A program made the position numbers and the translations under genes. A stretch of 48,815 nt of DNA from Prevotella sp. (GTDB taxonomy: Bacteria; Bacteroidota; Bacteroidia; Bacteroidales; Bacteroidaceae), in the NCBI GenBank assembly GCA_017449025.1, contig JAFSKJ010000105.1:1-48815 (forward strand), written 5' to 3'. Shown here one piece after another: positions 2,785 to 34,130 of this stretch (the first letter of the stretch is position 1; each line of letters opens with the position of its first letter). A model generated the notes under the pieces. It did no database searches, was not told the DNA's origin, and saw only the letters and a program-made list of their open reading frames with translations.

Positions 2785-2834
2785 AATGATTGTTGATGGT
2801 TAGATTTTAGATATGTGCATTTTTATTCGTCAGT

Positions 2835-3851: not shown

Positions 3852-4617
3852 TCTCCTTACCAGTGTACACCTGGGTCTCCTTGCATATCCAGTGCCCCTT
3901 GTCGGCCAGTTCCAACAGCCTTACCTCCACACCGTCGTCGCCAGGTCCCCAGATGTGGAGCTTAGCACCGCCGAAGCCGTTGTAGCTATTAATGGTCTTG
4001 GCCGTTGTAGGACAGTTGTTGTGGTTTATCCAAACGTTGAGTGCAGGCTGCACACCGCTGAAGGCGCAGGTGCCATCGCCCGTGCCATGGATCTGCATGA
4101 TGGGAATAGGTCGCACGTTGGCATTGGCCGAAGCACCGCCCATGGGGTAGCCGCTGACGGGGACGAAGGCGGCAATGAGGTCGGGAATCTTGTTCATGGC
4201 GTGGTAGGTGAACATGCCGCCCATGGAGAATCCGCCGAGATAGACGCGGTTGCGGTCAATCTTGTACTGTGTGGACATCTTGTCGATAAGGGCCTTGACG
4301 AAGTTGATGTCGCGGTCGCCGCCGGTGTCCCACGACTTGTCGATGCCATTAGGGAAGACGACGACGAACTTGGCAGTGTCGCACACGGCCTGCATGCTGA
4401 CATTGTCGTTTTTGAACTCATTGTTGATCATCCATCCGGCATCCTGGCTGTAGCCGTGGCAGAAGATGAACAGCGGGCGGTTCTCGCCCAGATCCTTAGG
4501 TGCATAGGCAATGTAGGTGCGATTAGTGCCGTCGACGGTGATGGTCGACGTGGCCTGTGCGTTGCTGTGCAGACAGCCCGTTACGAGCAGCACAGCGGCA
4601 ATGAATAGTTGTTTCAT
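2842..4617 (-). CDS. Secreted CE1-type esterase, paralogue of the downstream gene
   Basis: 591 residues with the same architecture as the next gene. The N-terminal export signal is ambiguous: VTGC at 12-15 could be a lipobox, but cleavage after a later SNA site by signal peptidase I is also possible. The hydrolase domain shows CHG at 53-55, nucleophile Ser131 in GFSMGG, a probable acid in HGTGDG and a His in DKGHW. The Ig-like, jelly-roll-like and T9SS-like tail regions follow and are almost identical to those of the paralogue. The catalytic domain is clearly different, so the two enzymes probably cleave different esters or positions. It starts 13 bp after the CotH gene and is presumably cotranscribed. 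Acetylxylan or feruloyl esterase activity is the best inference; a cutinase or PHB depolymerase role is less likely in this context. Confidence 0.87.
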   Translation of the reverse strand: MKQLFIAAVLLVTGCLHSNAQATSTITVDGTNRTYIAYAPKDLGENRPLFIFCHGYSQDAGWMINNEFKNDNVSMQAVCDTAKFVVVFPNGIDKSWDTGGDRDINFVKALIDKMSTQYKIDRNRVYLGGFSMGGMFTYHAMNKIPDLIAAFVPVSGYPMGGASANANVRPIPIMQIHGTGDGTCAFSGVQPALNVWINHNNCPTTAKTINSYNGFGGAKLHIWGPGDDGVEVRLLELADKGHWICKETQVYTGKEMWNFCKRYSLNKTSPSVSITSPKGGGTYTSFAAKGEATFPDITIEASAYDTNGTIAQVDFYDNNTLIATVTAEPYKATLSGATAGTHTLKVVATDNDGETGSTSTSVTFTAPQAAYVLSSKFTEANSVPAGWVTYDSDEKRIGYVGGFGQGCRILQMTGSPRDFTYGLYIRNKNGQAHQGYAKYGLPEANCSMTLARGHYTLKYRICNWNREEFSKVEVAVEKLGDGEAVAQVEYMPTVNVGNVTSNSFSGSKQETFEFDVYEGGNYVLAIYSDASGWSDALIGYLSLAYSGEPVTAITTVAAADSLDRIYNLNGQAIANPSKGIFIKNGKKVVLK

Positions 4618-4630
4618 GACTGTTGATGTT

Positions 4631-7027
4631 TTATTTTATTATTACTTTCTTTCCGTTTATGATATAGATACCCTTGGCGGGCTGGCTCACGCTCTGGCCG
4701 CAGAGGTTGAAGATGCTGTTGCCGGATTTGTTGTTGTCGGCCATCGGGCTGATGACAGGTGCAGTGCCCTCGCCCGGAGTCAGATATACAGCGCTCACCT
4801 TTGCCGAGCTGTTCCAGTCAACCTTGATGGCGTTGAGGTGGAGGAATGGGTCAATGCGGGTCTTGCCCTCGTTAGTGGTGGTGTTCTTGATGTCCTTCAG
4901 CGGTATTACGATGGCCTTCTTCTCGCTGTCCCAGTAGCGGTCCCACTGGTTGAACGACACCTTTATCTCCTTCCACGGGCCGTGGCTGACAAGGCGGTTG
5001 GCAAGTATGCGCAGTCCGGAGCCAGAGCCTCGGATTACAAGGTCGCCATAGCCGGAGAGGTCGGCGAAGAGGGTTTCGGTGACGCTGGTGAAGCCGGCCA
5101 CGGTGGAGCCGCCCTTGACGTCGCTGCCCATGTTCCACTCGGCGCTCACCGTCTTGTCGGTATGCTGGGCTGAGGCACCCGTGCCGTCCCACTCGTAGAA
5201 CATGTCGGCAGAGAGCAGCGTCCAGTCGTCGGGAGCCACAAAGTCGTCGATGTCGACAAAGCTGAGTATGCTTGCCAGCACATTGTCGCTGCGGTATGGG
5301 AAATAGTTGTTGAGCAGGCGGTTGCGTTCAGCCATGTAATGGTCGTCGACGGTATACAGCTGCCCGCGTGAGGTGTAGGGATGCACGTCGCGTCGGTAGT
5401 CGCCCCACCGTGCAGCCTCGTCGTAGAGTGCTGCGGATATGGTGTTGTAAAGGCTGTCCCAAAGCTCCACCACAGAACGCTGGCCTAACAGGCCGTCGTC
5501 GGCAAACACCTGCTTGGCGCGCTGCTGATAGCGTCGGGCAAAATCGGTGTTGCGCAGCAGGTTGTGGAAGATGCCCGTGGGGTAGCTGCTGCCGTTGTTC
5601 TTCGACAGCACGTTCTCGTTGACGCTCTCGAAGATAATCTCGCTGTCCCAGCAGAGGAAGCGGAAACCCTGGCTCTCGGCTCCGCGGCGGCGCAGGGCAT
5701 ACCAGTTGTGATGGTCCCAGTCGGTGTTGCCGCCATACTGGTTTATGAGCATGTAGTCGATGAAGCCGTCGATGTCGAGCAGCGGCTCCAACTCCTCGCT
5801 GGCATTGCCGTCGGCATCGAGGCCCTGCAGGCGCAGGTAGCTCTCGTCGGTGGGCGACGCCCCCACGGCCTTGACCGTCTGTACCATCAGTTCCCAGGCT
5901 TCCATGTCGCCCTCGCTGGCTTCCAGGTGGTTGCCGCCGTCTTCCTCAATCTTTATCACGTCGATGTCGGTTTTCTTGCCTCCGAGGTGGTGCTTGCCGA
6001 AGGTGTCGTCGACGCGCTCGGCAATGTTGTAGAGTCCCCAGTACATGCCATTAATAAATAGGTGTACGTAGAGGGCGTTGACGCTGGTGTGGCCCATGCG
6101 GCGCTGCATGCGCCTTGCCCACACGTCGCGCGTGTACTGGGCTTTCTGGCGGTTGCCCTCGGCCCAGTGCTGCCAGGCGTTGCCGAAGTGGCAGCGGAGC
6201 ACAAGCTGGTCGAACTTGGCGGGTTCGTCCTTGCCGAAGAGCGGGTACTCGAGCGAGCCGGGGCCGTACTCCTTCTTGAAGACAAGGCGGAACGAGTGCT
6301 TGGGGTTCTTCTCGGCCAAACGACCGTGGCCGCCGTGCAGGCGCATGCCGCAGTTGACGCTCAGGTCGTGGATGCCAGAAGATGCCGGCTGGTTGGGGTC
6401 GGGGCCGAACAGCTCCACGCTGGCGGGGCGTGTCCACCCGTGGCCGGTGGTGTCGCCCACGGGCGGGCCTGTGAAGATGTAGATGCCGCCACGGTCGGGG
6501 TCTTCCTCGTGACTGAAGAAGTTGTCCTTGTCGGAGACTATGCTAAGTATGGGCAGCGACTTCAGGCCGGCGATGATTTTCGGCCGCAGACGGCTGTCGT
6601 TGGTCATCTCGGGGTCCATGCCGTAGTCGGCGGGAGCAACACCAAATTCCTGGGTGAAGTGTCCCCACTCTGTGGGGTAGCCGTCGGGGTAGTCGGGCTG
6701 GCTGAGCACTGAGCTTACGAAGAGGTAGGTGGCGGTGGTGATGGTGGAGCTGACAGCACCGTCCTTTACCTCTGCTGCGCGCAGCAGAGTGGTCTGTGTT
6801 AGCGTCAGCGGCTCGGTATAGAGAGCGCTGGCTGCCGTAGGCGCGCTGCCGTCGAGAGTGTAATGGATGGTGGCGTCGGCGTCGGAAGACGTAATGGCAA
6901 CGGTTATGCTGTTGTCCTCGTACAGGCCGTGGGGCTTGCTGAACTGTGGTTGGGCATGAGCGGCCAGTGCTGCTGCGAAGAGCAGCACTGTGGCCATACT
7001 CATGGGTTTACGGTTGACTGTGTTCAT
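4631..7027 (-). CDS. Secreted CotH-domain (kinase-like) protein with CHB_HEX_C-like and carbohydrate-binding-like domains
   Basis: 798 residues. Signal peptide 1-25 (AAHA/Q). Residues about 30-105 resemble the small chitobiase/hexosaminidase C-terminal fold (TIHYTLDGSAPT motif). Residues about 155-480 form a CotH domain, with NPKHSFRLVFK, YNIAERVDD, NTDWDHHNWYALR and CWDSE matching the conserved basic and acidic positions of that family. A beta-sandwich region (about 590-750) is followed by a T9SS-like tail ending GIYIINGKKVIIK. Known CotH proteins include spore-coat kinases; in Bacteroidota such proteins are secreted and mostly of unknown role. Here it sits between the GH5-GH43 gene (33 bp upstream) and the esterases (13 bp downstream). 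I infer a surface protein that binds or modifies glycan or glycoprotein; catalytic activity is unproven. Confidence 0.85.
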   Translation of the reverse strand: MNTVNRKPMSMATVLLFAAALAAHAQPQFSKPHGLYEDNSITVAITSSDADATIHYTLDGSAPTAASALYTEPLTLTQTTLLRAAEVKDGAVSSTITTATYLFVSSVLSQPDYPDGYPTEWGHFTQEFGVAPADYGMDPEMTNDSRLRPKIIAGLKSLPILSIVSDKDNFFSHEEDPDRGGIYIFTGPPVGDTTGHGWTRPASVELFGPDPNQPASSGIHDLSVNCGMRLHGGHGRLAEKNPKHSFRLVFKKEYGPGSLEYPLFGKDEPAKFDQLVLRCHFGNAWQHWAEGNRQKAQYTRDVWARRMQRRMGHTSVNALYVHLFINGMYWGLYNIAERVDDTFGKHHLGGKKTDIDVIKIEEDGGNHLEASEGDMEAWELMVQTVKAVGASPTDESYLRLQGLDADGNASEELEPLLDIDGFIDYMLINQYGGNTDWDHHNWYALRRRGAESQGFRFLCWDSEIIFESVNENVLSKNNGSSYPTGIFHNLLRNTDFARRYQQRAKQVFADDGLLGQRSVVELWDSLYNTISAALYDEAARWGDYRRDVHPYTSRGQLYTVDDHYMAERNRLLNNYFPYRSDNVLASILSFVDIDDFVAPDDWTLLSADMFYEWDGTGASAQHTDKTVSAEWNMGSDVKGGSTVAGFTSVTETLFADLSGYGDLVIRGSGSGLRILANRLVSHGPWKEIKVSFNQWDRYWDSEKKAIVIPLKDIKNTTTNEGKTRIDPFLHLNAIKVDWNSSAKVSAVYLTPGEGTAPVISPMADNNKSGNSIFNLCGQSVSQPAKGIYIINGKKVIIK

Positions 7028-7060
7028 TGTTATTAGCTATGGTAAAAGGTGTTGGTGGTC

Positions 7061-10000
7061 CTACCTCACGGCAATCTTGCGCCCGCCAACAACGTAGATG
7101 CCGGCAGGAAGGCCGCGGGTGGCCTCGGTGCGTGGCACTCGGTGGCGCAGCATGGTTCCGGTGAGAGTGTAGACACTGACCGTGTCATCGGCAATCATGC
7201 TGATGTCGCTGATGCCAGATGAGGGATCCATGCGGCTGTAGTCATCGTTGTTGGTAACGTAGATGTCCTTCATCACTATGGTTCCCGTACCGTTGCCGGT
7301 GAAGGTGATCATGTAGACGTGCTCGGTGCTGAGCGGGCGGTTCTTGAGGGTATTCGACGTGTTCTTGGCGTTCTTCAGGTCAACCACAATCTGCAACTCT
7401 GTGCCGAAGGCGGGTGTGGTGTGGCAGGCTCCGTTGACCTTGTTCGAGGTGTAAATGTTCAGCTTGGCGTCGGCCGTCTGTTTCTGGTTGAGCTTCACCA
7501 CGAGGTACTTGTATGCCGAAAGGTCGATGCCCTCAGGGTACACCCATCCCACCTGCCCGTTGCTGCCGGGCTTGAACACGCAGGTCGTGGCGTTCTTGCG
7601 GTACGAGCCCTGACCCACTACGTTGGTGGTGATGAACTGTGCTTCGGTGGGGAAGAGTGAGGATGTAACCATGAACGTGGTCTGCACCTGATTGCCGAAA
7701 GCGTCGGTATAGGTGGCGGTGACGTTGGTAGTGCCTTCGCCTATGCCGATCATCTGCCCGTTGCGGAACTCCACGATGCCCGGTGTCTCACACTCGAAGC
7801 TGGTCTGCGTGGTGACGTTCTCCGTGTGCTTGTCGGCGAAGGTTGCCGTGAGTATGGGGGCACACCAGCCGCCAATCATGGCCTCCATGGAGGTCTTCGA
7901 CGGCTTGAGGCTGTTGACGGTGAACATTTTCTCGTCGATGGTGGCAGTGAAGGCGGGATAGATGGCATCCTCGTCGAAGTCGGCCTCGGTGGTGAACCAG
8001 TCGAAGTCGGCAGAGCCGCCGGCAGCTTTTGTGGCATAGCAGAAAAGACCGTAGCGGGCTCCGACGAAAACGTTGAGGTTGAAGCTCAGCTTTGTCTCTC
8101 CGCCGAGGGCATTCCACTCCTTGTTGTCGAGTGAATAGTAGAACTTGGTGAGGCTGGTGGCATAGTCGATGGTGGCGCGCAGGTAAATGATGTCATTAAC
8201 CTCGACGCCCTCGGCAACGGTCTCCTTGGGCGTGAAGTTGTTGTCGACGCGCAGCGTGTCCTGCCGCCAGAACACCTGGAACTTGTTGTCCTTCTTCTCC
8301 ACGCCAATCATGGCCTGCGGGTCCTGGAAGATGCAGATGCCGGCGCGGTCGCCCTCGAGCATGCGGCTAACGTCAAGGCGGACGGTGCCCGTGCTGGCCT
8401 TGCCGTTGAGCGCGAAGATGCGCTGGGTAAGCATGTTGCGAGCCTGAGTAAGGCGGTTGGTGACGTTCGACGTCTTCAGGCGCAGCCAGCCCGGACGCTC
8501 GAAGAGGCTCCAGGCCTTGTCGTCGGGGTTGTGATTCCACTCCCACTGCATGCCCAAGGGGTAGGTGCGGAAATTGTCGGTGGTGGGAAGGCGCTTCACG
8601 CCGATGTCGCCCACGGCCTTGGGCTTGGTGTAGGTGTCGTAGGGCACGCCGTTGTTGCCCACGATGGGCCAGTTGTCGGTCCATGTCACGGGCTGCAGGT
8701 TGGGCATACGGCCAAATGCACCGAGGTCTTCCTGCATGATGGTCCACCACTTGCCGGCAGCATCCTCTATAAGCGAGCCTTGGTGTATGGTGTTCACCTT
8801 GCCGTTGATGTTCTTCTCCAAAAGCATCTTTTCCTCGTATGGACCGAAGACGTTCTTGGAGCGGAAAGCCACCTGGCCTGACGGCCATCCGCCGTATGTG
8901 GCGTAGATATAGTAGTAGTCGCCTACCTTATAGAAGTGGCAGCCCTCAAGGCCGGAGCCGTCCCTTGTGATGACGGTCTTCTCCTGCTTGAAGTTGAAGT
9001 TCTCGTCAAGCTCGCACACGTTGATGTGGTCAATGCCGCAAGCAACGTACACCTTGCCGTTGTCGAAGAGCATTCCCGGATCGTAGTAGATGCGCGAGAG
9101 CTTCTTCTTCTCCCATGTGCCCTCAGGGGTGGATGTTGTCAGCAGCCAGCCGCCGGCATCGTTGCCATTGATGAGCAGATAGAACTTTCCGTTGTAGTAC
9201 TTCATGGAGCATGCCCACATGCCGGCGGCGTAGGCGTTCTTGCCGTTGAGCAGGTTGTAGCGGTCGTTGTCGGCCAACTGCAGCAGGGGCTGTGCACAAT
9301 ATTCCCAGTTCACCATGTCCTGCGACTTCATGATGGTGGCTCCCGGGAAGTGGTGCATGGTGGTCGACACCATATAGTAGGTGTCACCAACGCGGATGAC
9401 GTCGGGGTCGGGCACATCGGCGCGGACGATGGGGTTCTGGTACTTGGTACCCCTGTCGCTGACTGGGGTGCTGACAAAGTCGGGCAAGGGGTTGTTAACC
9501 TTTGCCCATTCGGCATACCAGTCCATGCAAGCCTTGCCGCAGGCCTCCTCCAAGCCTCCGAAAGCAGGTGTCACATTACCACTGCGCAGTAGCTCGTCAA
9601 TGTCGATGAGGCAGCCCGTGCCAGAGAGGGTCATGGAGATGTTTCCGTAGTAGTCGTGTACGGCCTTGTAGACCGTACCCCACATCGATGTGCGGCCTGT
9701 GGCCCATGTGCCGTAGTTAGACTCCACCCAGACGCCGTGCTCGTTGTAGTGGCCAGTGCCTGGCTTGTTGGGGCTCCAGTCAATCTCGGTGATGATGACG
9801 GGGTTGGTGTCTAACACTGGCACTTGATTGTGGAACTGGTTGATCTTGTTCTTCTTGGCCTGCTCCAGATTGGCGGCGGTAAGGTTTTTGTCTTCACAGC
9901 CATACCAGCCGTCGTAGTCGTGAACGGCGTAGCCAATGTTGTAGCCCTCAATGGGGTATTGCTTGTAGTTGCTGTAGCCCGACTGCCATCCGGAGCCAGG

Positions 10001-23768: not shown

Positions 23769-24205
23769 GCTATGTCTAAAGCCCCCAGAGGGGATGATAA
23801 CGACAACCTAAACAACTTGGACAACTTATCTGTGCATTCTCGTACGCACGCGAGTGGATGTGTCAGCTGGGCGGGCGAGGTCGCCCGCGTTCCTATACAT
23901 TCTCGGACGCGCGCGAATGGATATCCTGGAACGCGGGCGTCCTCGCCCGCCCGCAGCCTAATGCCCCAGAGGGGCATGATAGGAGTAGCCAGCCATACAG
24001 CCATGCCGTAGGTATGGCGAAATGGCTGGTGGAATGCCATCACAAAGAAAGCCTGCCTCGTAGGTAGGCGACAAAGAGCGCGGATTGTCGCGTACCTAAA
24101 GCCACGCACGTTACCACCACCATATTCCCAGCCATTTCGCCGTACCTAAAGGCACGGCTGTATGGCTGGCTACCCCTATCTGATGTCTACGGCATCGTCT
24201 TCCCG
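23769..24205. repeat. Repeat B, copy 1: complex palindromic intergenic element
   Basis: No gene is visible here. The region includes a GC-rich hairpin with 23-base arms differing at one position (23871-23893 and 23928-23950), a CCCAGAGGGGCATGATAGGA block, and AGCCAGCCATACAGCC with its inverse GGCTGTATGGCTGGCT. The same blocks occur in inverted orientation at 30170-30560 and partly at 24498-24715. I read it as a non-coding mobile-type repeat; no transposase is associated. Confidence 0.8.
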
Positions 24206-24715: not shown

Positions 24716-24760
24716 GTAAAAAAGATTCGTGTGGATTAATGTTTCTTGGTGCTTACAGAA

Positions 24761-24797
24761 CTGCCCCGCAAGCCGGTAGGTTCCGGTTGCGGGGCAG
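24761..24797 (-). terminator. Conserved GC-rich hairpin downstream of microprotein gene 1
   Basis: CTGCCCCGCAA (24761-24771) and TTGCGGGGCAG (24787-24797) form an 11-bp stem, capped on the RNA strand by CGGAACCTACCG, which itself can fold. The same stem and cap (CGGAACCATCCG) occur after microprotein gene 2. It lacks a clear U-tract, so it may be a processing, stability or regulatory element and not a simple terminator. Confidence 0.6.
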
Positions 24798-24830
24798 ATA
24801 GGCGACAAAATATCACCTTAATGATATTAC

Positions 24831-25004
24831 TTATTCGTCCTCTTCGTCGTCCCAAACAGAGTTTTGGCGACGCGACAGCACTTCCGTTCCGCTGCTGGCG
24901 CTTGTTTCGCTGTACACGGTTGTTCCTGCCGCAGATTCACCTAACATGAGATGCGGCTTTACGTTTACGATGATGGTCATCGGCTGCTGATATGTCTTTT
25001 TCAT
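24831..25004 (-). CDS. Microprotein 1, MKKTY family (unknown function)
   Basis: 57 residues, easily missed by length filters. It starts MKKTYQQPMT and ends LSRRQNSVWDDEEDE. The middle is Ser/Thr/Ala/Gly-rich, there is no signal peptide or Cys, and the C-terminus is strongly acidic after an SRR motif. A second gene at 27676-27852 encodes a protein of the same design (MKKTY..P, LSRR, W-acidic end). Each lies downstream of a large surface-protein gene and upstream of the same hairpin. Codon structure and the conserved ends support real translation. I do not know a function; possibilities are a small regulator, a chaperone-like partner of the secreted protein, or a peptide precursor. The 254-bp gap to the upstream gene is occupied by repeat C. 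Confidence 0.72.
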   Translation of the reverse strand: MKKTYQQPMTIIVNVKPHLMLGESAAGTTVYSETSASSGTEVLSRRQNSVWDDEEDE

Positions 25005-25042
25005 AATCTTCTTTGCTTTAATGTTTAACTGAACTTTCCCAC

Positions 25043-25250
25043 ATTTAAGGCCGAAGGCCTGATAAGACTATAGGCAGGGGTGAAAACCCCTGCAAAAAGG
25101 GCGACCAACACAAACCCCGAAGGGGTGGCAGAGCATTCTGTCGCCCTTTCAGGGCTAATGCAACTGTCATCTTTTGCAGGGGTTTCACCCCTGCCTGTGG
25201 TCTGAAGGCCCTTTCTGGGCTATGCTTTCTGTGGCTCATTACGGGTGGGA
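25043..25250. repeat. Repeat C, copy 1: long palindrome with GCAGGGGTG arms
   Basis: AGGCAGGGGTGAAAACCCC (from 25072) pairs with the mirrored GGGGTTTCACCCCTGCCTG (to 25198). GGGCGACC/GTCGCCC and TTCCCAC/GTGGGAA pair outside or within. It sits between the surface-protein gene and microprotein 1. The CAGGCAGGGGTG / CACCCCTGCCTGTG arms recur in the palindrome at 48603-48690. Confidence 0.78.
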
Positions 25251-25258
25251 AACTATTG

Positions 25259-27472
25259 TTACTTAATCACGAGTTTACCGTTCACAATGTAGAGACCCTT
25301 TGTGGGCTGAGCCACGCGGCGGCCCTGCAGGTCGTAGACAGTCTTGCTCTCCGTGCGCTGCTCGTCAATACTCTCGATGCCGGCTGCCTCATCCTCATAG
25401 ACTATGGAGATACGGCTGCTATTGCTCTGGGCGGTAAGATAGGCGCGGAAGGGTTTGATTTTGATGTCATCAGTAGTGACCTTGTAGAAGCCTACATTTT
25501 CGCCCTGCTTCTGCAGCACATAGCTGTTAGCTGGAACTGTACCAGTTTCGAACACACCCGTCAAGGCGCCGCTTACGTTATTAGCCGAAGCGCTGACAGC
25601 ACCGGAGCCTGTAAAGGTGCACTCTTCACTGCCATTCAGCAGAACAGGGGTATTGGCTGATATTGTTCCTGTCACAGGCGTTGCCGTAGCTTTGTCGCCA
25701 CTGGTGTAGGCAAGCGTATAGGCCTTCACACCCTCGGGAATTGTGGCTGCAAACGGCAGGCACAGCGTGCCTGCGCCAGCAGCAGCTTGAATAGTAGTGT
25801 TATAAGTGGCGTTGGTAGCCGTAAAGGCTACAGGAGCCTTGAAGGGATAGCCGTCGGTGAGCACGAGCTTGTCGCAAGCACCGGAGACAATGACATTGTT
25901 TTCGTTGTTAAGCTGATCTGCATTAGCTACAAACAGACAGTTGGGATTAGCTGGTGTGAGAGTTACCCCCTTACCTGTTGCATCTTTTATGTCAATGACT
26001 TTTGCAGATTCGTCGCTAAGAGCTGTAATAGCCGACGCAGTCATTGCTCCATCTTTGATGTCTCCACTCAAAACATAGTCTGTTCCAGTTTTCGCCGTCG
26101 GATCAATGAGCACAATATTGGTGATTGTTGTTTCACCGCCGCCGTTTACGACCTTAATCGCATTGAGATGAACATAAGGATATGTGCTAAGGTCTAATGT
26201 GGTTCCTTCAGCTGTTGGAGTAACCTGTACCTCAGTTAATGCGCCACCATCACTTACACGATTCATCATGATTCTGAGATTAGAGCCAGTTCCATAAATT
26301 TTCATGGCAGAATACTTGGAAAGGTCTGCATAGTCAAGATATGAAACATTACCACTTCCATAAATGCAAGATCCTCCAGTTCCAACCTCTCCGTATGAAA
26401 GCGCAGCATAATAAGGAGTGTTAGAGGTAATTGTCGCATCTGCATCCGGACTACTCCAAGTCTTAAACATTCCAGGTATCAGCTGGACTTCAGAAACAGG
26501 AACAACAGCCGTTACCTCAGGATATGCTATTTCAACACCATATTGAGGACTATTCCAACCGTCATCGCCCCAGTTAGATGCAATGCCATTGTCGAAACCT
26601 CCATCGTTTATCAAGTTCGTTGTGGAACCTTGCTCCACCAGTTTAACATCGTCGAACCATACCGTGCCATTCAGAGAACCGAAGCACCACTTTAGATGTG
26701 TCAAATCGTCAACAGCAGTGAAGGTGCAAGAGCAGTCTCCCCATTCTGTTCCGATATTATATCCTGTATAATTGGTTCCACCACCATCACCTGTTTTGTA
26801 TGGCCAAAACGGCATGTTATACGCTTCTGAGCATTTGGCCTTCATTGTAAGAACGTATGTCTTATCTTTCTCCAAGGGGGTGTCCAGTCTATACCAGACA
26901 GCCCATTCCCAAGCTTTTTCTTTGACACTATTGGTTGTCATCTTCAGACAGCGTGTAGGGTTGTTCTCAGACTCATAGATAGCGTATTCTGGTTTGTTCC
27001 AACCGTCATTACCCCAGTTTGCATCCAGTCCCGAATCGAAATCGCCTCCAGTTATCAAATTGGTGGTTGTACCCTTTTCAACAAGCTTAATGTTGTCGAA
27101 GCGCAAATAACCATTCAGAGAACCAAAATCCCATACCAAGCGATTCAATGCATCATTAGCTTCAAATTCGCAAGTACAGGTAGACCATTCTGTCCCAATC
27201 TTGTAACCAGTATATTTTGTCTGTCCTCCTTCAGCAGTATTGCATGGCCAAAAAGACATCTGATACTCTTCAGAGCATTTGGCATCCATGGAGAGGACAT
27301 AAGTCTTTCCTGATTCCAACGGCGTAGCTAATTGATACCAGATAGCCCATTCCCAAGCATTAGTCTTTGCCTCGTTTGTAATGATCTCAAGGTAATGATT
27401 CCCAGCTTTTACCCCCCCCACTCCAGTGATGAGGAGTGCGGAGATGAGTAATAATTTTGTGATAGTTTTCAT
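25259..27472 (-). CDS. Large secreted surface protein with two CBM-like repeats and a T9SS-like tail
   Basis: 737 residues. Signal peptide 1-23 (GGVKAG). Two homologous jelly-roll-like repeats (about 24-133 and 160-285) share KTYVLSM/TMKAKCSE, WP, YTGY(K/N)IGTEW and FGSLNG; they resemble CBM4/9-type carbohydrate-binding modules. A further beta-domain (about 320-470) has LSKYSAMKIYGTGSNLRIMM and YVHLNAIKV. Residues about 475-705 form a domain shared with the upstream 695-residue protein (TGYPFKAPVAFTATNATY-type region). The tail ends GLYIVNGKLVIK, T9SS-like. No catalytic domain was recognised, so I infer glycan binding or adhesion at the surface. No TAnnTTTG box is visible upstream, so it may depend on the promoter at 30020. 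DNA is AT-richer than in most of the window. Confidence 0.82.
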   Translation of the reverse strand: MKTITKLLLISALLITGVGGVKAGNHYLEIITNEAKTNAWEWAIWYQLATPLESGKTYVLSMDAKCSEEYQMSFWPCNTAEGGQTKYTGYKIGTEWSTCTCEFEANDALNRLVWDFGSLNGYLRFDNIKLVEKGTTTNLITGGDFDSGLDANWGNDGWNKPEYAIYESENNPTRCLKMTTNSVKEKAWEWAVWYRLDTPLEKDKTYVLTMKAKCSEAYNMPFWPYKTGDGGGTNYTGYNIGTEWGDCSCTFTAVDDLTHLKWCFGSLNGTVWFDDVKLVEQGSTTNLINDGGFDNGIASNWGDDGWNSPQYGVEIAYPEVTAVVPVSEVQLIPGMFKTWSSPDADATITSNTPYYAALSYGEVGTGGSCIYGSGNVSYLDYADLSKYSAMKIYGTGSNLRIMMNRVSDGGALTEVQVTPTAEGTTLDLSTYPYVHLNAIKVVNGGGETTITNIVLIDPTAKTGTDYVLSGDIKDGAMTASAITALSDESAKVIDIKDATGKGVTLTPANPNCLFVANADQLNNENNVIVSGACDKLVLTDGYPFKAPVAFTATNATYNTTIQAAAGAGTLCLPFAATIPEGVKAYTLAYTSGDKATATPVTGTISANTPVLLNGSEECTFTGSGAVSASANNVSGALTGVFETGTVPANSYVLQKQGENVGFYKVTTDDIKIKPFRAYLTAQSNSSRISIVYEDEAAGIESIDEQRTESKTVYDLQGRRVAQPTKGLYIVNGKLVIK

Positions 27473-27523
27473 GATGAATGTTGTTATTGTTGTTAGTTAT
27501 AATATTTGTTTTCTTGCTCCATG

Positions 27524-27589
27524 TGGTGATAAGTTACTAATAGTTGCAGGAGTGTCCCTTTAGGCGACTACCTTAGGACGTTATCACCA
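27524..27589. other. Inverted repeat upstream of the 737-residue protein gene
   Basis: TGGTGATAA (27524-27532) and TTATCACCA (27581-27589) are perfect 9-base arms. Inside, GTCCCTTTAGG and CCTTAGGAC offer further pairing. The element lies between the hairpin after microprotein 2 and the next start codon, so it would form a structured intergenic RNA. Nothing else is recognisable in 27473-27675. Confidence 0.5.
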
Positions 27590-27607
27590 TACAGATTAAT
27601 TATGGTG

Positions 27608-27644
27608 CTGCCCCGCAGCGCGGATGGTTCCGACTGCGGGGCAG
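27608..27644 (-). terminator. Conserved GC-rich hairpin downstream of microprotein gene 2
   Basis: CTGCCCCGCAG (27608-27618) and CTGCGGGGCAG (27634-27644) form an 11-bp stem with a CGGAACCATCCG cap on the RNA strand, matching the hairpin at 24761-24797. No strong U-tract follows. Confidence 0.6.
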
Positions 27645-27675
27645 CGGTGATAGAGGTTATGCCTTGCGGCAGTGC

Positions 27676-27852
27676 TTACCAGTCTTCCTCATCGTCCTCC
27701 CAAGTGTCGAATCTGCCGGAGCGGCGGGAGAGGCTCTCCTTGTCGGGGTCGGCAGGGTCTGAACTCTTTACTGGCGATGCTACGTTGAGAAGAGCATCGG
27801 TCATGTCTACGTTCTCGGGCGAGATGGCGGGGATGATATATGTCTTTTTCAT
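27676..27852 (-). CDS. Microprotein 2, MKKTY family (unknown function)
   Basis: 58 residues. It starts MKKTYIIPAI and ends LSRRSGRFDTWEDDEEDW. Like microprotein 1 it has the N-terminal MKKTY..P, a central polar part (here SPVKSSDPADPDKE), the LSRR motif and a Trp-plus-acidic end, with no signal peptide. It follows the 695-residue surface-protein gene by 39 bp with AAAGGA just upstream of the ATG, and is followed by the conserved hairpin. The pairing surface protein plus microprotein plus hairpin occurs twice in a row. From memory, small proteins with this outline are frequent in Prevotella and generally uncharacterised; that was not checked. Confidence 0.75.
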   Translation of the reverse strand: MKKTYIIPAISPENVDMTDALLNVASPVKSSDPADPDKESLSRRSGRFDTWEDDEEDW

Positions 27853-27891
27853 AATAATTGTCCTTTCCTAAATATTACGTTAAACGTTCAA

Positions 27892-29979
27892 CTACTTAAC
27901 CATTACCTTCTTGCCACCGACAATGTAGAGGCCCTTCTGGGCGTTAGCCACGCGCTGGCCGTTAAGGTTGTAGATGTTGCTGTCAGCAGTCTCGCTGTCT
28001 ACGGCAGCCTCGCTGATGCCTGTCACATCGTCGTCTAAGTTGAAGAACAGGCGGGTGGTGGTAGCATCTGCAAGGTAAGCACGGAAGGCATTGACCTCAA
28101 CACCAGTCTCGCCAGCCTTATAGAAGTTAACACCGTTGTCTTGGCTCTGTAGGACATAACCGTCGGCAGGAACGACTGTAGTGTTGTAGACACCACAGAG
28201 CAGGCCGTTTGCCACAGCGGCGTCGGGAGTAGCGGCAATGGCGGCATTGGTGGCAGTGAACTTAAACGTTCCGTTGTTCTTCAGCATGACGGGCTTGTTT
28301 GCCTTAATGCTCTCCGCATCTTCCTTGACAAGCTTATCCCCGTCGCTGCCAGTGATGTTATATGCCAGAACACCCTCGGGAAGAGCTGCGTCGAACGGAA
28401 TCACCATCGTGGCATAGCCTGCATCTGACACTGTCTTCGTGAACTCAGCATTTGTAGCGGTAAAAGCGGAAGGAGCCTTAAACGGCTTCTGGTCGGTAAG
28501 AACGAGGTTGGCACAAGTGCCATTGACAATCACGTTGGTGGTATTTGTCAACTGTCCTTCGTTTGCAATGAAAAGTGCATTGGGGTTTTCAGCTACCAGT
28601 CCAATACCAGTTCCCGTAACGCCTGTGGCGTCGTAGCTTGTTGCTGTGGCATCGGCGAGGGCTGCGGTAACACTGGGAGTAAAGGCTCCTGAGCCAGAGA
28701 TAACATAACTGTATGCAACAGGAAGTGAAGCTTTATAAAGAACAACTTTAGTAATGATTCCTGTCTGACCATCCCACGGGAACTTAAAAGCATTCAGTTG
28801 TTGAGCGGAAAGTGACTTCAAATCTAACGAATAGAAGCCGTCATCATTTAGATTTCCAGTTATTTCTTTTTGATTATCCGAACTCCAGTTGAAAAGCAGA
28901 CGAATCGATTTTTTTTGTGTTCCATAGATATGCATTTCGTCGTACTCAGAAAGGTCAGCATATTGGTCTGCCAGTACACCTCCATTACCATAGATGGTTG
29001 TTCCCTGACCCACAGATTCGCCAAAATGGCTTTCACATCCACCAACGAACATGGCTGATGTCAAAAGTGTCTCATGAGGATTGCTTGCAGTGATAACGCT
29101 TGCCTTCAGCTTAATGGAAGTAATCGTCATTGTGCCCGCAGTCGAATTGCTGTTCCATTTCCAGTTGGTAATTGCTGCTGGGTTACCAACGTTTGCTGCT
29201 GTCATGTGCTGGTTCAAATCATTCCTTCCAGTGACATTACTCCAAAAACCTTTATTTGTTGTACCATCTCCAATCTCAAAGTTGTTGAAAAGATTATCAC
29301 CAGTATATGTTACAGAGAAACCAGTAAGAGAGGTTAGGTCTACACCACCTGAAGGGAAATTGATTTTGAGACTGCCAGATTCGCCTGTGCCAGTAAGTTC
29401 ACCTGTTTGTTCGTTAAGTGAGAAGCCTCCAGTAGCAGTCAAGTCTGTAATGTCAATCTCTGCATTTCCGTCGTCACCCCATACCAACTCCATCGGCTTC
29501 TGCAAATAGGGCTTTTTTGTGATGGTGATGCTATGAGTACCGTTGCTGGAATCATATCCTTTTCCGCCAAATCTGATATTTGTGACATTCGAGAGATTAC
29601 AATCAAGTTTATCGTCAACATTTGCCCAAATTTTATTGTTTTCCGCATCAATATAAATGGTCTTGTCACCAGCAGAATAAAAAAGGATTTCTGCAAGAGT
29701 ACTACCACCATTTTGAAAGCACATACGGTAGGAGCCTGTGGTATAGTCACTGGTAGAGAAATGCAACTCTGTAAAATTACCTAACTCGCCTGATCCAAAT
29801 GAGAATAAGTCCATCATATTGCTCCAACCAGCTGTCCAAGTATATACGCCTGTTCCTGAATCAAAGCTACCAGACGATTGTACGTTACCATACGTAGCGT
29901 ATAGTTTTGTAGCTTTCGCTCCTCCCACTCCGACAACGAGCATTGCCAGTGTGAGCATAAATTTCGTAATAATTTTCAT
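27892..29979 (-). CDS. Large secreted surface protein with a T9SS-like tail
   Basis: 695 residues. Signal peptide 1-23 (VGGAKAT). The N-terminal half is beta-rich with no family recognised with confidence; it includes a domain (about 300-440) with YADLSEYDEMHIYGTQKK and QLNAFKFPWDG that parallels one in the 737-residue protein and in the CotH protein. Residues about 450-650 share a domain with the 737-residue protein (CANLVLTDQKPFKAPSAFTA, PADGYVLQSQDNGVNFYK). The tail ends GLYIVGGKKVMVK. It is probably the first gene of a run of four with microprotein 2, the 737-residue protein and microprotein 1. A surface or extracellular binding role is inferred; no enzyme motif was seen. Confidence 0.82.
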   Translation of the reverse strand: MKIITKFMLTLAMLVVGVGGAKATKLYATYGNVQSSGSFDSGTGVYTWTAGWSNMMDLFSFGSGELGNFTELHFSTSDYTTGSYRMCFQNGGSTLAEILFYSAGDKTIYIDAENNKIWANVDDKLDCNLSNVTNIRFGGKGYDSSNGTHSITITKKPYLQKPMELVWGDDGNAEIDITDLTATGGFSLNEQTGELTGTGESGSLKINFPSGGVDLTSLTGFSVTYTGDNLFNNFEIGDGTTNKGFWSNVTGRNDLNQHMTAANVGNPAAITNWKWNSNSTAGTMTITSIKLKASVITASNPHETLLTSAMFVGGCESHFGESVGQGTTIYGNGGVLADQYADLSEYDEMHIYGTQKKSIRLLFNWSSDNQKEITGNLNDDGFYSLDLKSLSAQQLNAFKFPWDGQTGIITKVVLYKASLPVAYSYVISGSGAFTPSVTAALADATATSYDATGVTGTGIGLVAENPNALFIANEGQLTNTTNVIVNGTCANLVLTDQKPFKAPSAFTATNAEFTKTVSDAGYATMVIPFDAALPEGVLAYNITGSDGDKLVKEDAESIKANKPVMLKNNGTFKFTATNAAIAATPDAAVANGLLCGVYNTTVVPADGYVLQSQDNGVNFYKAGETGVEVNAFRAYLADATTTRLFFNLDDDVTGISEAAVDSETADSNIYNLNGQRVANAQKGLYIVGGKKVMVK

Positions 29980-30027: not shown

Positions 30028-30169
30028 TACATTATTATACGTGGGTGTTTGTCCGCATGTCTCATATCCTTATTTTTTTGTGCGCAGGGGCCGTGGCGGC
30101 GCGGTGTTGACACAAAAACCCAAGGGGAAAGAGACGTTTTTCGTGTAGATTGTCCCTCTCATGCATAGG

Positions 30170-30560
30170 GAAAACGATGCCGTAGGCATCAGATAGGAGT
30201 AGCCAGCCATACAGCCGAGAGACGATGCCGTAGGCATCAGATAGGAGTAGCCAGCCATACAGCCGTGCCTTTAGGTGCGGCGAAATGGCTGGTGAATATG
30301 GTGATGGTATAATGTGCGTGCCGTAGGTACGCGACAAAGAGCGCGGATTGTCGCCTACCTACGAGGCAGGCATTCTTACCTATGACATTCCACCAGCCAT
30401 ACAGCCATACCTACGGCATGGCTGTATGGCTGGCTACTCCTATCATGCCCCTCTGGGGCATTGAGGTGCGGGGCGGGCGTACGAGAATGCACAGATAGGT
30501 TGTCCAAGTTGTTTAGGTTGTCGTTAACATCCCCTCTGGGGCATTCCCACATTACGTGCG
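30170..30560. repeat. Repeat B, copy 2 (inverted relative to copy 1)
   Basis: This is the inverse of most of 23769-24205, including the AGCCAGCCATACAGCC blocks, the GACAAAGAGCGCGGATTGTC block, CCTATCATGCCCCTCTGGGG and the ACAGATAGGTTGTCCAAG end. It lacks the internal GC-rich hairpin. A further partial copy of the end block occupies 30556-30612. No gene is visible in 30030-30620. Confidence 0.8.
30175..30265. repeat. Tandem duplication of a 48-bp unit inside repeat B copy 2
   Basis: GATGCCGTAGGCATCAGATA followed by GGAGTAGCCAGCCATACAGC occurs twice with a 48-base period; the second unit begins at about 30223. Confidence 0.85.
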
Positions 30561-30620: not shown

Positions 30621-31451
30621 TTACTTCTCCAAGAACTGCAGGGGAATGTTGCCGAGCCTTGCTGCCATCTTCGAGAAGGTGCTGCCTTTGGAGCCGTAGA
30701 TCTTGTGGGTGGCGGCAAGCGTGTACATGTCGGCAAGGCCGCCGCGAATTCCGTCGATGCCGTCGCGTCGCGCCTCTGCGTCGGGCGTCACTATGCGCTG
30801 TCCGAAGGCCTGCCGCAGCTCACGCTTCACGTCGTTGCTGTCGGTGGCGAGGAACACCTTGGTGTCGGCATGGGCATCAATTTCCTCTTTTATCTTGTCT
30901 ATGAAGAGGCTCGTGGGACTGCTCTGTATGGAGATGACATGGTCGGTGCGGCGGATGTGTATGCCCACGATGTTGGATGAGGAGAGCTGATTGCGGAAAC
31001 GGTCAACGGCATCGGCCACCTCGCTGACAGGCACGAAGAGACGATGGAGCAGCTCTGAGGGATAGGGGTGGAAGTCCATGTAGTTGCTCATGTAGCAGCG
31101 GCTGTCGCGTGCCCAGGCAGCAAAGTCGAAGTTGCTGGTCATCAGCGTCCAGATGTCTTCCTCATGAAGGCGCTTGGAGAAGAGCAGGCGCTGGGGCAGT
31201 GCCGGCAGCCACAGGTTATGGCGGCGCGCGCGGTCGTAGAGCAGGTGGTCGGCGATGGTGGCCTCGCGCAGTGGCAGCATGGGCTGCGGCTTGAAGATGG
31301 CACTGAAGGGGGCGTTCAGCGCCCAGTCTCTGAACCACACTATCTGCAGGCTGTTGCCCGTCTGCTGGGCCAAGGCGAAGGCCGATGCCGTTGCCCTCAT
31401 CCTGTTGGCAAGCCCTCCGCAGGGCACCATCACAAATGTGTTTCTATCCAT
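30621..31451 (-). CDS. Fucosyltransferase-like glycosyltransferase (GT23/GT11-type fold)
   Basis: 276 residues, cytoplasmic, no signal peptide. An N-terminal GGLANRMRATASAFALAQ motif and the downstream GIHIRRTDHV (about 160-170) and SKGSTFSKMAARLG motifs match GDP-fucose-dependent transferases related to NodZ/FUT8 and the alpha-1,2 family. It would add a sugar, perhaps fucose, to a lipid-linked or surface glycan. It overlaps the end of the flippase gene by 8 bases and is translated from the same transcript. The donor sugar is an inference. Confidence 0.78.
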   Translation of the reverse strand: MDRNTFVMVPCGGLANRMRATASAFALAQQTGNSLQIVWFRDWALNAPFSAIFKPQPMLPLREATIADHLLYDRARRHNLWLPALPQRLLFSKRLHEEDIWTLMTSNFDFAAWARDSRCYMSNYMDFHPYPSELLHRLFVPVSEVADAVDRFRNQLSSSNIVGIHIRRTDHVISIQSSPTSLFIDKIKEEIDAHADTKVFLATDSNDVKRELRQAFGQRIVTPDAEARRDGIDGIRGGLADMYTLAATHKIYGSKGSTFSKMAARLGNIPLQFLEK

Positions 31452-32895
31452 TGAGTTTATTAAGTTTAGAGGTGATGAACGTGATGCACTCGTCGAAGAT
31501 TCTGACGCGGAGCAGGCTCATGGCACCGTAGTAAAGGCCCACGGCGAGCACTATGCGGGCGGCAAGCCGCAGGTAGAGGCTTTCCATGCCGGCAGTGAGG
31601 AACCACGTGGCAGCCATCACCGCCAGGGCTATGGCGCAGAAGGGCACTATGTCCTTAAGGAAGCTGGTGAGTGTGTAGCCCGTGAAGCGGCGGACGAAGA
31701 AATGCCAGGCAAAGGTCCACAGCGAATAGATGACCACGTAGGCCACAACCATGGTGCCGATGCCGTAGGGGTAGAGTGCCAGCATGGCTGCGATAAGCAG
31801 CACGCACTGCCCGAGCGTGAGCTTGAAATATGTGCCGCTGTGGCCTTTGCTGATGAGCAGGTTGGTAAGCACGGAGCAGATGGGGATGAAGGCACTGCTT
31901 ATGCAGAGCAGCTGGAGGTAGGCCGAGGACACGTGCCACTTCTCGCCAATGGTGAGCACTATGAACTCACGTGCCACCATGCCGAAGCCGAAGAGCAGGG
32001 GGAAGGAAATGAAGGCGGTGAAGCGCACCAGCTTGCGCAGTATGCGCAGCTGCCGCTCGCGCTCGTCGGCCACGTTGGTGAACACGGGCTGTGCCACCTG
32101 CGCCAGTGTGCCCTGCATGAGATAGCACACCTTGCTGCTCCACTGGTAGGCCTGGTTGTAGTCGCCCACCTCAGTCTTGGTGAAGAACTTGCCCAGCAGC
32201 ACATTCATGATGCTTGTGTTTATGCGCTCCAGGATGGTTGTGGCCAGCATCTTCCAGCTGAAGCCGAACATCTGGCGCACGGGGCCGAAGTCGAGGCTCA
32301 GCGAGGGCCGCCAGTCGGACACCCCCCAGAGCAGCGCCGAGTTAAGGCCTATGTATACCAGCGACTGCGTGGCCAGTGCCCAGTAGCCGCAGCCTGTGAG
32401 CGCCATGGTCAGGCCTACGAGGTTTGACACTATGGTGGCTGTCATGTTGCACTTGGCCTGCTCCTTCACCTTGAGGTTGCGGAAGAGGTAGGCCGACTGT
32501 GCCGTGCCCAAGGCAGAGAAGATGATGCTCAGGAAGGCCACTCGGCATAGGGTTACCAGCTCTGGCGTGGAATAGAACGAGGCTATCAGCGGTGCCGCAA
32601 GGAACAGCACGGCATAGCAGCCGATGCCTACTGTGACGTTGAACCAGAACACGGAGTTGTAGTCGCGGTGCTGCGGGGTGCGGAGGTTGGCCAATGCGCT
32701 CTTGAAGCCGCTGTCCTGTAGGGCTGTGGCCACCAACGAGAAGACGGCAATCATGGCAACCATGCCGTAGTCCTCGCGTGCCAGCCGGCGAGCCACGATG
32801 ATGCCAATCAGGAGTCCCAGCCCCTGCTGAACCACGTTGTTCATGCCGCCCCAGAGTAGGCCGCGAGTGGTCTTGTCCTTAAGTGTCTCAGCCAT
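31444..32895 (-). CDS. Polysaccharide/oligosaccharide flippase (MOP superfamily, Wzx-like)
   Basis: 483 residues from the ATG at 32895 (MAETLKDKTTRGLLWGG); the longer frame upstream crosses the promoter box and was discarded. About 12-14 transmembrane helices, with the typical N-terminal amphipathic start and GLLIGIIVARRLAREDYGMVAM segment. The family moves undecaprenyl-linked glycans across the inner membrane. Its partner gene, a glycosyltransferase, overlaps its 3' end. A divergent acyltransferase gene shares the promoter region. Together they look like a small surface-glycan locus without a full polymerase set. Confidence 0.88.
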   Translation of the reverse strand: MAETLKDKTTRGLLWGGMNNVVQQGLGLLIGIIVARRLAREDYGMVAMIAVFSLVATALQDSGFKSALANLRTPQHRDYNSVFWFNVTVGIGCYAVLFLAAPLIASFYSTPELVTLCRVAFLSIIFSALGTAQSAYLFRNLKVKEQAKCNMTATIVSNLVGLTMALTGCGYWALATQSLVYIGLNSALLWGVSDWRPSLSLDFGPVRQMFGFSWKMLATTILERINTSIMNVLLGKFFTKTEVGDYNQAYQWSSKVCYLMQGTLAQVAQPVFTNVADERERQLRILRKLVRFTAFISFPLLFGFGMVAREFIVLTIGEKWHVSSAYLQLLCISSAFIPICSVLTNLLISKGHSGTYFKLTLGQCVLLIAAMLALYPYGIGTMVVAYVVIYSLWTFAWHFFVRRFTGYTLTSFLKDIVPFCAIALAVMAATWFLTAGMESLYLRLAARIVLAVGLYYGAMSLLRVRIFDECITFITSKLNKLNG

Positions 32896-32914
32896 CAATA
32901 GCGCAATTTGCGCA

Positions 32915-32922
32915 CAAAAGTA
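32915..32922 (-). promoter_or_regulatory. Bacteroidota -7 box for flippase-glycosyltransferase
   Basis: The minus strand reads TACTTTTG, 19 bases before the flippase ATG. It forms one arm of an inverted repeat with the acyltransferase promoter. Confidence 0.6.
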
Positions 32923-32966
32923 CAAAAATAATTGCTACGGGACTCTTGTTATTCATAATTATTTCG

Positions 32967-32974
32967 TACTTTTG
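32967..32974 (+). promoter_or_regulatory. Bacteroidota promoter for the acyltransferase gene
   Basis: TACTTTTG, with TTG at 32946-32948, 18 bases upstream. The leader would be about 45 nt. Confidence 0.6.
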
Positions 32975-33026
32975 CAAAAAATTATATGTGCGCCAAGGGC
33001 GCACGCACGGAAAACTGCTTAAGACA

Positions 33027-34130
33027 ATGGAAACCATACCCCAGAAGAAGCCCAGGCTGGAGTGGCTCGACGCGCTGCGCGGATTCACCATGATACTTGT
33101 CGTGGCCAACCACGTGAGCCAGATGGGTTTCGAACAGCACAGCAAGCTATCGTCGTCGCTGTCGTTCCTGCTGCTGTTCCGCATGCCCCTGTTCTTCTTC
33201 GTCAGCGGATTCCTGGCCTACAAGGCCTCGCAGGTGTGGAACCTTAGCGGGCTGTGGCAGTTGGTGAAGAAAAAGCTGCGGGTGCAGCTCATCCCCACGG
33301 CGGTGTTCTTCATACTGTTCTGTGCAATCATCTGCAACAACTTTCTCAACAGCATAGTGAACAACCTTCACTCGCCCACCAAGGGCGGCTACTGGTTTAC
33401 AATAGCCTTGCTCTGGATGTTCATAATCTACTACCTGTTCTCCTACGCCGAGAGCAAGCTGAAAGAGACGCGGCTGTTCAAGGAGCACAACATAGGCGCC
33501 GTGCCCATACTGCTGCTGTTCGTGGTATCGCTGTGTTTCTACGAGACGTGCTTCCTGCCAAAGATTTTCCCTTGGGCGCAGGGACACAAGATGCCCTCCA
33601 TAGGGTGGTTGAACGACCTGTGCCTCGAGCGCGTGTTCTACCACTTCCCATTCTTCCTGTTCGGCAATATTGTTCACCGCTACTGGAACAAGTCGCAGCG
33701 CATAATGGACTCGCGATGGTTCTACCCGATGGTGATTACGGTGGTGATTGTTGCCACGGTTGAGGTGATAAAATGGCACAACCTCAGGTTTGCATGGACC
33801 AACCTGCCGTCGACCGTGGCCAAGTTCGGGCTGCTCACCATAGCGTTCATGTACTTCCGCCACTACCAAAAATACTTCACCAAGCTAACTGTGGCTGGCA
33901 GCACTCTGCAGTACATAGGCCGCCGGACGCTTGACATCTATCTGATACACTTCTTCTTCATGCCCAACATACCCACGATAGGCATGTTTTTCGACAAGTA
34001 CCGCCACAACTTCGTGCTTGACACTACACTGTCGGTGATAATGGCGCTGCTGATTATCGGCTTCTGCTGCATCACGTCGAACATCCTGCGTGTCAGCCCC
34101 TTCCTGAAGAAGTGGCTCTTCGGGCGGTAA
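33027..34130 (+). CDS. Acyltransferase 3 family membrane protein
   Basis: 367 residues from the ATG at 33027; upstream in-frame codons lie before or within the promoter. The family start RLEWLDALRGFTMILVVANHV, with the conserved Asp-Ala-Leu-Arg-Gly and the active-site His of the membrane helix, is followed by FRMPLFFFVSGFLAYK and about ten hydrophobic helices. Members transfer acyl groups to surface sugars at the inner membrane. It is divergent from the flippase-glycosyltransferase pair and convergent with the GH95 gene, 9 bp away. O-acetylation of a surface glycan is the natural inference. Confidence 0.88.
   Translation: METIPQKKPRLEWLDALRGFTMILVVANHVSQMGFEQHSKLSSSLSFLLLFRMPLFFFVSGFLAYKASQVWNLSGLWQLVKKKLRVQLIPTAVFFILFCAIICNNFLNSIVNNLHSPTKGGYWFTIALLWMFIIYYLFSYAESKLKETRLFKEHNIGAVPILLLFVVSLCFYETCFLPKIFPWAQGHKMPSIGWLNDLCLERVFYHFPFFLFGNIVHRYWNKSQRIMDSRWFYPMVITVVIVATVEVIKWHNLRFAWTNLPSTVAKFGLLTIAFMYFRHYQKYFTKLTVAGSTLQYIGRRTLDIYLIHFFFMPNIPTIGMFFDKYRHNFVLDTTLSVIMALLIIGFCCITSNILRVSPFLKKWLFGR

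Follow-up and report, generated by a model that had tools for sequence, protein, structure and literature searches.

Among the ribosomally synthesized and post-translationally modified peptides (RiPPs), the linear polyphosphorylated peptides (LPPs) of the Bacillota were described in May 2026 from the lpp cluster of Paenibacillus alginolyticus (Popov et al., 2026; PMC13381572), which encodes a precursor with a YxxP leader (LppA), a RiPP recognition element (RRE; LppB), an NTP transferase (LppN), and an exporter (LppD). The HprK-like LppK phosphorylates Ser3 of the core several times, and the SpI-like LppS, characterized by Ser, His, and Asp, needs the RRE. According to the same report, this kind of gene set is functional, the Paenibacillus cluster having been expressed in Bacillus subtilis, RRE binding by both lasso peptides and LPPs relies on the YxxP motif, and the final product and biological role of LPPs are unknown. 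Here we analyze a stretch of 48,815 nucleotides from Prevotella sp. (contig JAFSKJ010000105.1; this whole stretch is called the window), in which two consecutive modules each encode a large surface protein and, behind it, a microprotein beginning with MKKTY. Sequence comparisons make it likely that these microproteins serve as precursors in an LPP-like, i.e., RRE-dependent and kinase-modified, RiPP system, in which one cassette is combined with many precursors paired with surface proteins, and a common set of enzymes encoded elsewhere in the genome probably matures all of these precursors.

With the LPPs of PMC13381572 the present family shares a precursor with a YxxP leader and a Ser some 18–19 residues further on, a discrete RRE, a candidate HprK-like kinase, an S26 (SpI)-like peptidase with Ser, His, and Asp, and, in the fullest cluster (L271; G, C, and L denote our genomes, contigs, and loci), an NTP transferase and an ABC exporter. 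A further likeness is the capsule-locus setting, with glycosyltransferase- and Wzz-like neighbors recognized by eye, in several genomes without a match to SprA. In contrast to LPPs, which PMC13381572 calls restricted to Bacillota and in whose main text the string “Bacteroid” does not occur, the genomes considered here are of the Bacteroidota type, many unlinked precursors exist per cassette, each paired with a surface protein, the leader follows another consensus, and a Trp is conserved near the C-terminus. RiPP precursors of Bacteroidales are also contained in clusters mined with BAGEL4 (PMC10352776), but those in the accessible text of that report have leaders of the GG type together with C39 transporters, radical SAM, YcaO, or Lan enzymes; none is of the present kind. 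An LPP-kind gene set appears to be present in many Prevotella-related genomes, with precursors in one-to-one association with secreted proteins that share one domain. This pairing provides a concrete, testable hypothesis for the role of such peptides and would link peptides of a recently reported family to the surface proteins of bacteria.

Microproteins Are Encoded Next to Predicted Secreted Proteins

The start MKKxYxxP occurs at 11 places in the genome that contains the window (G000; 3.5 Mb, 80.65% complete). Nine of them open microprotein open reading frames (ORFs) of 52–65 residues, and the other two are an internal ATG within an ORF of 305 residues and an ORF of 14 residues. All nine microproteins are encoded 18–254 nt downstream of, and on the same strand as, an ORF with a tail such as YDLQGRRVAQPTKGLYILNGKKVVMK. 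A profile made from the nine yields 19 matches in G000 at E-values up to 10, and the majority of the additional matches likewise adjoin tails. A wider profile detects the microproteins in 100 of 151 genomes belonging to the same taxonomic family, covering 19 of 25 genera, with up to 25 matches per genome. In a phylum-wide draw, members are present in 3 of 296 genomes, G000 included; as no more than two other genomes of the same family are found among those listed for this draw, the figure shows rarity outside the family, not inside it.

The contexts of 111 distinct microproteins, taken from the best-scoring matches and for this reason a sample that favors relatives of the seeds, comprise 80 with a tail protein directly upstream, 10 for which a text pattern identifies the next gene downstream as lipoprotein-like (by eye, L171 looks receptor-like and L154 doubtful), 15 unassigned ones, and six with too little sequence. 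Nine of the 15 unassigned microproteins have the same domain upstream with another tail or no recognized one, two precede a lipoprotein-like gene, and the remaining four are those of L083 (second microprotein), L085 (dockerin-type protein), L090 (false match), and L141 (second copy). Between tail protein and microprotein, the gap is shorter than 90 nt in 71 of the 80 cases from other genomes. The initial annotation was right in suggesting a functional unit with a fixed order and an association with T9SS (type IX secretion system) tails. The profile search that it had proposed gives matches that are not scattered, 80 of the 111 lying directly after a tail protein, and a chance or scattered association is ruled out by the placement in G000 together with this survey. 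Judged from the sequences, each microprotein is encoded directly 3' of a putative secreted protein with a domain of about 150 residues (the partner domain) and a mostly T9SS-type tail, and a minority is encoded instead directly 5' of a lipoprotein-like gene.

For the microproteins, nothing scores above the curated cut-offs in Pfam or NCBIfam, and nothing is found in the PDB up to an E-value of 1. Literature searches, including start sequences such as MKKTY, gave no description that we recognized as referring to these microproteins, and the word “Prevotella” is absent from the main text of PMC13376575.

At L043 (G000:C85), an ORF of 45 residues with an acidic end and no YxxP lies 11 nt past a tail protein with partner domain and is perhaps a diverged or degraded family member. 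Microproteins are also encoded after other C-terminal ends, i.e., of the NGVKYSxNGQ type or MYNVQGMKL (L131, L157, and L079) and after a dockerin-type end (L085), so that proteins with different tail types may make use of the same system.

Pairing Tracks the Partner Domain and Not the Tail

A tail profile gives 130 matches in G000 at E-values up to 10, and 18 of these have a microprotein. For tail proteins without a microprotein, the surroundings of 54 were inspected (14 plus 40, in score order, leaving out 58), and the partner-domain model, covering about 150 residues before the tail, was made from 17 microprotein-linked proteins of G000 only. At E < 0.001, this model recognizes 76 of the 80 linked proteins from other genomes versus 7 of the 54 unlinked tail proteins of G000. 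Pairing tracks the C-terminal domain and not the tail as such, and the tail alone as determinant is ruled out by the 54 tail proteins of G000 that have no microprotein. Of the Pfam and NCBIfam models, none is matched by over 7 of the 91 sequences of domain plus tail (E-values up to 0.1), the commonest being T9SS tail models (weak matches of TIGR04183 in 7/91 and PF18962 in 2/91); neither of these two matches the window surface proteins at E-values up to 1. PDB matches of the partner domain include an arabinanase chain (4kca, E = 1.7e-10). In Pfam scans, lectin-like and leucine-rich repeat families are the commonest and enzymes few among 57 linked proteins, and many enzyme families occur among 50 unlinked tail proteins of G000.

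Judged by SprA, a T9SS translocon is encoded in G000 (G000:C59, 2655.9 bits), and SprA is present in 93 of the 100 microprotein-bearing genomes versus 24 of the 51 others. By eye, the window tails resemble the T9SS cargo of P. intermedia (PMC11969387) in the cleavage-site Ile (TGI), the Tyr/Gly motif, GxYI, and the final Lys. The differences are that the main text of that report contains neither “small protein” nor “downstream” and that in G000 the tail alone does not predict a microprotein.

Conserved Residues and Selection

Tyr and Pro of YxxP are found in 89 of 89 aligned microproteins, partly by construction because seeds were picked by MKKxYxxP and the rest by profiles of them. The extended motif [YW]xxPx[LVIAFY] occurs in 42 of the 89, compared to a mean of 0.5 in shuffles. 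A Ser is located at Y+19 in 62 microproteins (at most 17 in shuffles) and somewhere within Y+17 to Y+21 in 86, and a Trp near the C-terminus is conserved in 82.

Over 28 close microprotein pairs, which are mutually non-independent, 25 finite estimates of the ratio of nonsynonymous to synonymous substitution rates (dN/dS) were obtained, and 22 of them are below 0.5, which speaks for coding selection; the near-neutral ratios that the initial annotation had named as refuting are not seen in most pairs, the sole pair within G000 being near 1. The surface protein of module B has a counterpart with 58% identity at L235 of Prevotella sp. RGIG4329, followed after 55 nt by a microprotein of 58 residues with the same ends, and 18 of 56 aligned residues are shared between this microprotein and that of module B. 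Within G000, microprotein divergence correlates with that of the tail (r = 0.34, p = 0.0015).

A Putative RRE, HprK-Like, and S26-Like Cassette

PqqD (RRE) proteins are encoded in 138 of the 151 genomes of the same family. In G000, PqqD is a discrete protein of 89 residues (E = 4.2e-12 in one search and 1.2e-12 in another), and the RRE profile matches the lasso RREs TfuB1 (5.2e-9) and TbiB1 (3.3e-4). The searches for microproteins and for PqqD had already revealed contigs that contain both. Linkage was then searched for in 25 genomes, of which 22 have no SprA match; 13 had microprotein family members, and all 13 were without a SprA match. In these 13 genomes, a PqqD gene is located no more than 7.5 kb away from 11 of the 24 microproteins, compared to 0.16 expected, and from 7 of 18 when the four genomes in which the linkage was noticed first are subtracted. 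The operon at L271 (G355) contains on one strand and in this order the genes for an HprK-like protein, an S26-like protein, an RRE, an NTP transferase, an ABC exporter, and a microprotein; its NTP transferase is 30% identical to a protein from L238 that matches Pfam NTP_transf_5 at 2e-36. L274 (G424) encodes a microprotein, a lipoprotein-like protein, an HprK-like protein, an RRE, and an NTP transferase. G446 and G431 have a microprotein, a lipoprotein-like gene, and an RRE, with S26-ABC fusions nearby (such fusions: L237 and L272), and an HprK-S26 fusion is encoded beside an RRE and a microprotein at L270 (G054).

In SprA-bearing and microprotein-bearing genomes, all 11 PqqD loci examined, that of G000 (L236) included, have the trio of HprK-like, S26-like, and RRE genes in one contiguous block; six of these loci had seeded the models and five had not. 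Near the trio, the fetched stretches contain a microprotein only at L241 (about 0.3 kb away) and L245 (about 6.6 kb away), and the trio of G000 is unlinked to microproteins. Residues S40, H78, and D93 of the S26-like protein are invariant in 9/9 sequences, as are the P-loop SGTGKST and two further motifs of the HprK-like protein in 12/12. On sequence grounds, three proteins are predicted for the G000 cassette: an HprK-like protein with a P-loop, an S26-like peptidase with Ser, His, and Asp, and a PqqD-type RRE that is a discrete protein.

At L273 (G431:C1:1793000-1811000), three YxxP proteins of 35–41 residues, each encoded directly upstream of a lipoprotein that looks fimbrillin-like by eye, surround an RRE and an NTP transferase gene.

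Proposed Maturation and Alternative Explanations

If the microproteins are precursors in an LPP-like system, the RRE would dock the KKxYxxP leader, the kinase-like enzyme would modify the conserved Ser near Y+19, and the S26-like peptidase would cleave just before this Ser. The freed core, made up of the variable middle and the Trp/acidic end, might then be exported. One cassette would serve about 20 precursors in trans, as the location of the cassette apart from the precursors suggests. The mature peptide might in turn act on or with the neighboring surface protein, e.g., in its assembly, anchoring, or modification, which would account for each such protein having its own precursor; this role as a surface partner we grade clearly lower than the precursor function itself. 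A specific version, put forward only tentatively, is that each partner-domain T9SS protein carries its own phosphorylated peptide, which would be encoded in the same operon, matured by the trio, and joined to or assembled with the protein outside the cell. If true, such surface decoration would constitute a first function for LPP-type RiPPs and a new type of post-translational partner for secreted proteins. The precursor function as such would explain a large class of unannotated microproteins and point to a peptide-processing route beside the T9SS.

Several observations weigh against a precursor function. Both microprotein ends are conserved, unlike a classic leader followed by a free core, and the LPP consensus YxxPxVLxHQxIxFETxxS, as given in the text of PMC13381572, is matched only at Y, P, and some hydrophobic positions, with the Ser shifted by one; the position table of the 89 microproteins has no HQ or FET consensus and places the Ser at Y+19, not Y+18. 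In Prevotella-type genomes, including G000, the cassette mostly does not adjoin precursors, and neither an NTP transferase nor an exporter was found beside the cassette of G000, for which no genome-wide search was made. PqqD has no match in 4 of the 100 microprotein-bearing genomes and is encoded in 42 of the 51 genomes without detected microproteins, weak matches (E up to 0.01) are among the 24 members of the linkage test, and SprA has no match in G010, a genome with 17 microproteins. Two of the three enzymes have no family score above the cut-off, i.e., the S26-like protein stays below it (Pfam S26, E = 0.0046), and the HprK-like protein has a sub-cut-off match to Hpr_kinase_C at L241 only (E = 0.0014) and none for the G000 copy. 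The PDB matches of both are weak and indirect (LexA only, at 0.036, for the S26-like protein; ABC transporters, 0.0077, and PEPCK, 0.01, for the HprK-like protein). With regard to selection, three dN/dS estimates are higher (0.66, 1.01, and 1.33), that of 1.01 belonging to the sole pair within G000, a tandem on C87, and two of the three pairs without an estimate have non-synonymous changes only. Microprotein B and its L235 counterpart are near saturation (proportions of synonymous and non-synonymous differences, pS and pN, 0.62 and 0.47), and co-divergence of microprotein and partner domain is weak (r = 0.20 overall, with relatedness uncontrolled; within G000 0.13, p = 0.10).

Alternatively, the microprotein might be a dedicated cytosolic chaperone or pilot that, made at the end of each message, would bind nascent T9SS cargo at its C-terminal domain and ready it for export. 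The fixed 3' position, the lack of a signal peptide by eye, the strict pairing with one C-terminal domain, and the association with SprA would suit such a role, but some members are encoded ahead of lipoprotein-like genes where SprA has no match, G010 combines 17 microproteins with no such match, a conserved Ser together with a variable middle would be unusual, and such a role leaves unexplained why RRE, kinase-like, and peptidase genes are linked; we consider a chaperone unlikely. A regulatory function, in which a small protein or a translated 3' ORF would govern expression of the surface-protein operon and not be processed, is quite improbable. The protein is indeed short and conserved, and its gene is followed by a terminator-like hairpin, strong structure being present within the following 90 nt in most cases, but no family or solved relative is found in Pfam, NCBIfam, or the PDB, and a regulator predicts neither the specificity for the partner domain nor the linkage to the RRE. 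It is the linkage to RRE, kinase-like, and S26-like genes that argues for a RiPP-type precursor rather than for a secretion chaperone or a regulator, so that, of the roles proposed in the initial annotation, the processed peptide gains support and the secretion partner and the regulator do not.

The tandem copies that occur in the window and on C87, as well as the co-divergence with the tail within G000, would be compatible with a hitch-hiking 3' cassette that has no function of its own and is copied with domain and tail by duplication. However, the low dN/dS in most of the (non-independent) pairs and the presence in 19 of 25 genera render this very unlikely. Paeninodin-like lasso peptides, as described in PMC13381572, resemble the present system in their type of RRE-binding leader and in tailoring by kinase and NTP transferase, and true lasso-peptide precursors using lasso B1 (RRE) might be suspected from the YxxP leader, the matches of the RRE profile to lasso B1 structures, and weak matches of two lasso precursor models (6/89 and 3/89 microproteins; best E = 0.094 and 0.014). 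In contrast to lasso systems, the B2 peptidase (PF13471) is over the cut-off in 0 of 14 precursor-rich genomes, with one sub-cut-off match that contains a stop (G404), and an S26-like peptidase is encoded instead. In addition, visual inspection of the PqqD loci covered here revealed no cyclase (macrolactam synthetase), for which no profile search was made. Membership among the lasso peptides was rejected because of the B2 result and seems extremely improbable.

The Two Modules of the Window and Their Surroundings

The features of both modules are listed in Table 1. Their location on the minus strand and their order, i.e., surface protein, microprotein, and hairpin, are as initially annotated, and the same holds for the common ends and differing middle of the two microproteins (38% identity, with start, LSRR, and Trp plus acidic end shared) and for the shared C-terminal domain and tail of the surface proteins (43% identity over the last 200 residues). 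The tail of the module A surface protein shows the motifs TGI ... YNLNGQRV ... KGLYIV.GKK..VK and is supported by the tail profile and the domain model; the protein has no match above cut-off in Pfam and NCBIfam. For the surface protein of module B, Pfam CBM_4_9 is matched in two stretches (E = 2.7e-7), and in the PDB 4mgq, with the molecule name Glycosyl hydrolase family 10, is found at E = 1.3e-18.

Table 1. Coordinates (window positions) of features in the two modules.
Feature	Position	Strand	Description
Surface protein, module A	27892..29979	-	ORF, 695 residues; N-terminal part without named family, C-terminal domain, short T9SS-type tail
C-terminal 200 residues, module A	27895..28494	-	Partner domain of about 150 residues plus tail; from alignment and G000 domain model
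Microprotein A	27676..27852	-	58 residues; ORF, profile (itself a seed), and family alignment; leader MKKTYxxP..., variable middle, LSRR, Trp plus acidic end; candidate RRE-dependent precursor peptide
Hairpin 3' of microprotein A	27609..27643	-	GC-rich, terminator-like
Surface protein, module B	25259..27472	-	737 residues; two CBM_4_9-like carbohydrate-binding stretches, partner domain, short T9SS-type tail
C-terminal 200 residues, module B	25262..25861	-	Partner domain plus tail; from alignment
Intergenic gap, module B (surface protein to microprotein)	25005..25258	-	254 nt; inverted-repeat element with arms 25065-25089 and 25179-25203
Microprotein B	24831..25004	-	57 residues; ORF; profile match 3.1e-23 (itself a profile seed); candidate precursor peptide
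Hairpin 3' of microprotein B	24762..24796	-	GC-rich, terminator-like

The regions of the hairpins fold strongly, with z-scores of -6.5 (27580-27675, module A) and -5.8 (24740-24830, module B). The hairpin had also been proposed to be a conserved 3' element, which did not hold up, since its sequence occurs in G000 (80.65% complete) at the two window sites only, with up to three mismatches allowed, and other family members carry different hairpins. As the pattern is confined to these two sites, it is common to the window pair and no conserved element of the unit. Strong structure is found within 90 nt 3' of the microprotein in 60 of 80 cases versus 6 of 80 inside the microprotein gene, the underlying shuffles preserving single-base content only, and a run of at least four T is contained in those 90 nt in 52 of 80, a count without a control. 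The hairpins look like terminators that would close each message.

The element in the gap of module B (25045-25240) is palindromic and insertion-like; three short motifs of it each occur in 3 of 100 G000 loci checked, and these loci overlap one another and the window. Four more tail proteins are encoded at 1021-7228 of the window (tail matches at 1021, 2845, 4634, and 7064, minus strand), without a microprotein recognized by profile. Inverted copies of an interspersed repeat array, at 23772-24204 and 30168-30552 and about 6 kb apart, flank the two-module island, with main arms of 149, 80, 73, and 50 nt that are 88–96% complementary; recombination between them could lead to inversion of the island. 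Adjoining the modules, at 30621-34130, are surface-polysaccharide-like genes, i.e., a NodZ/GT11-like gene recognized below cut-off and flippase-like and acyltransferase-like genes recognized by eye.

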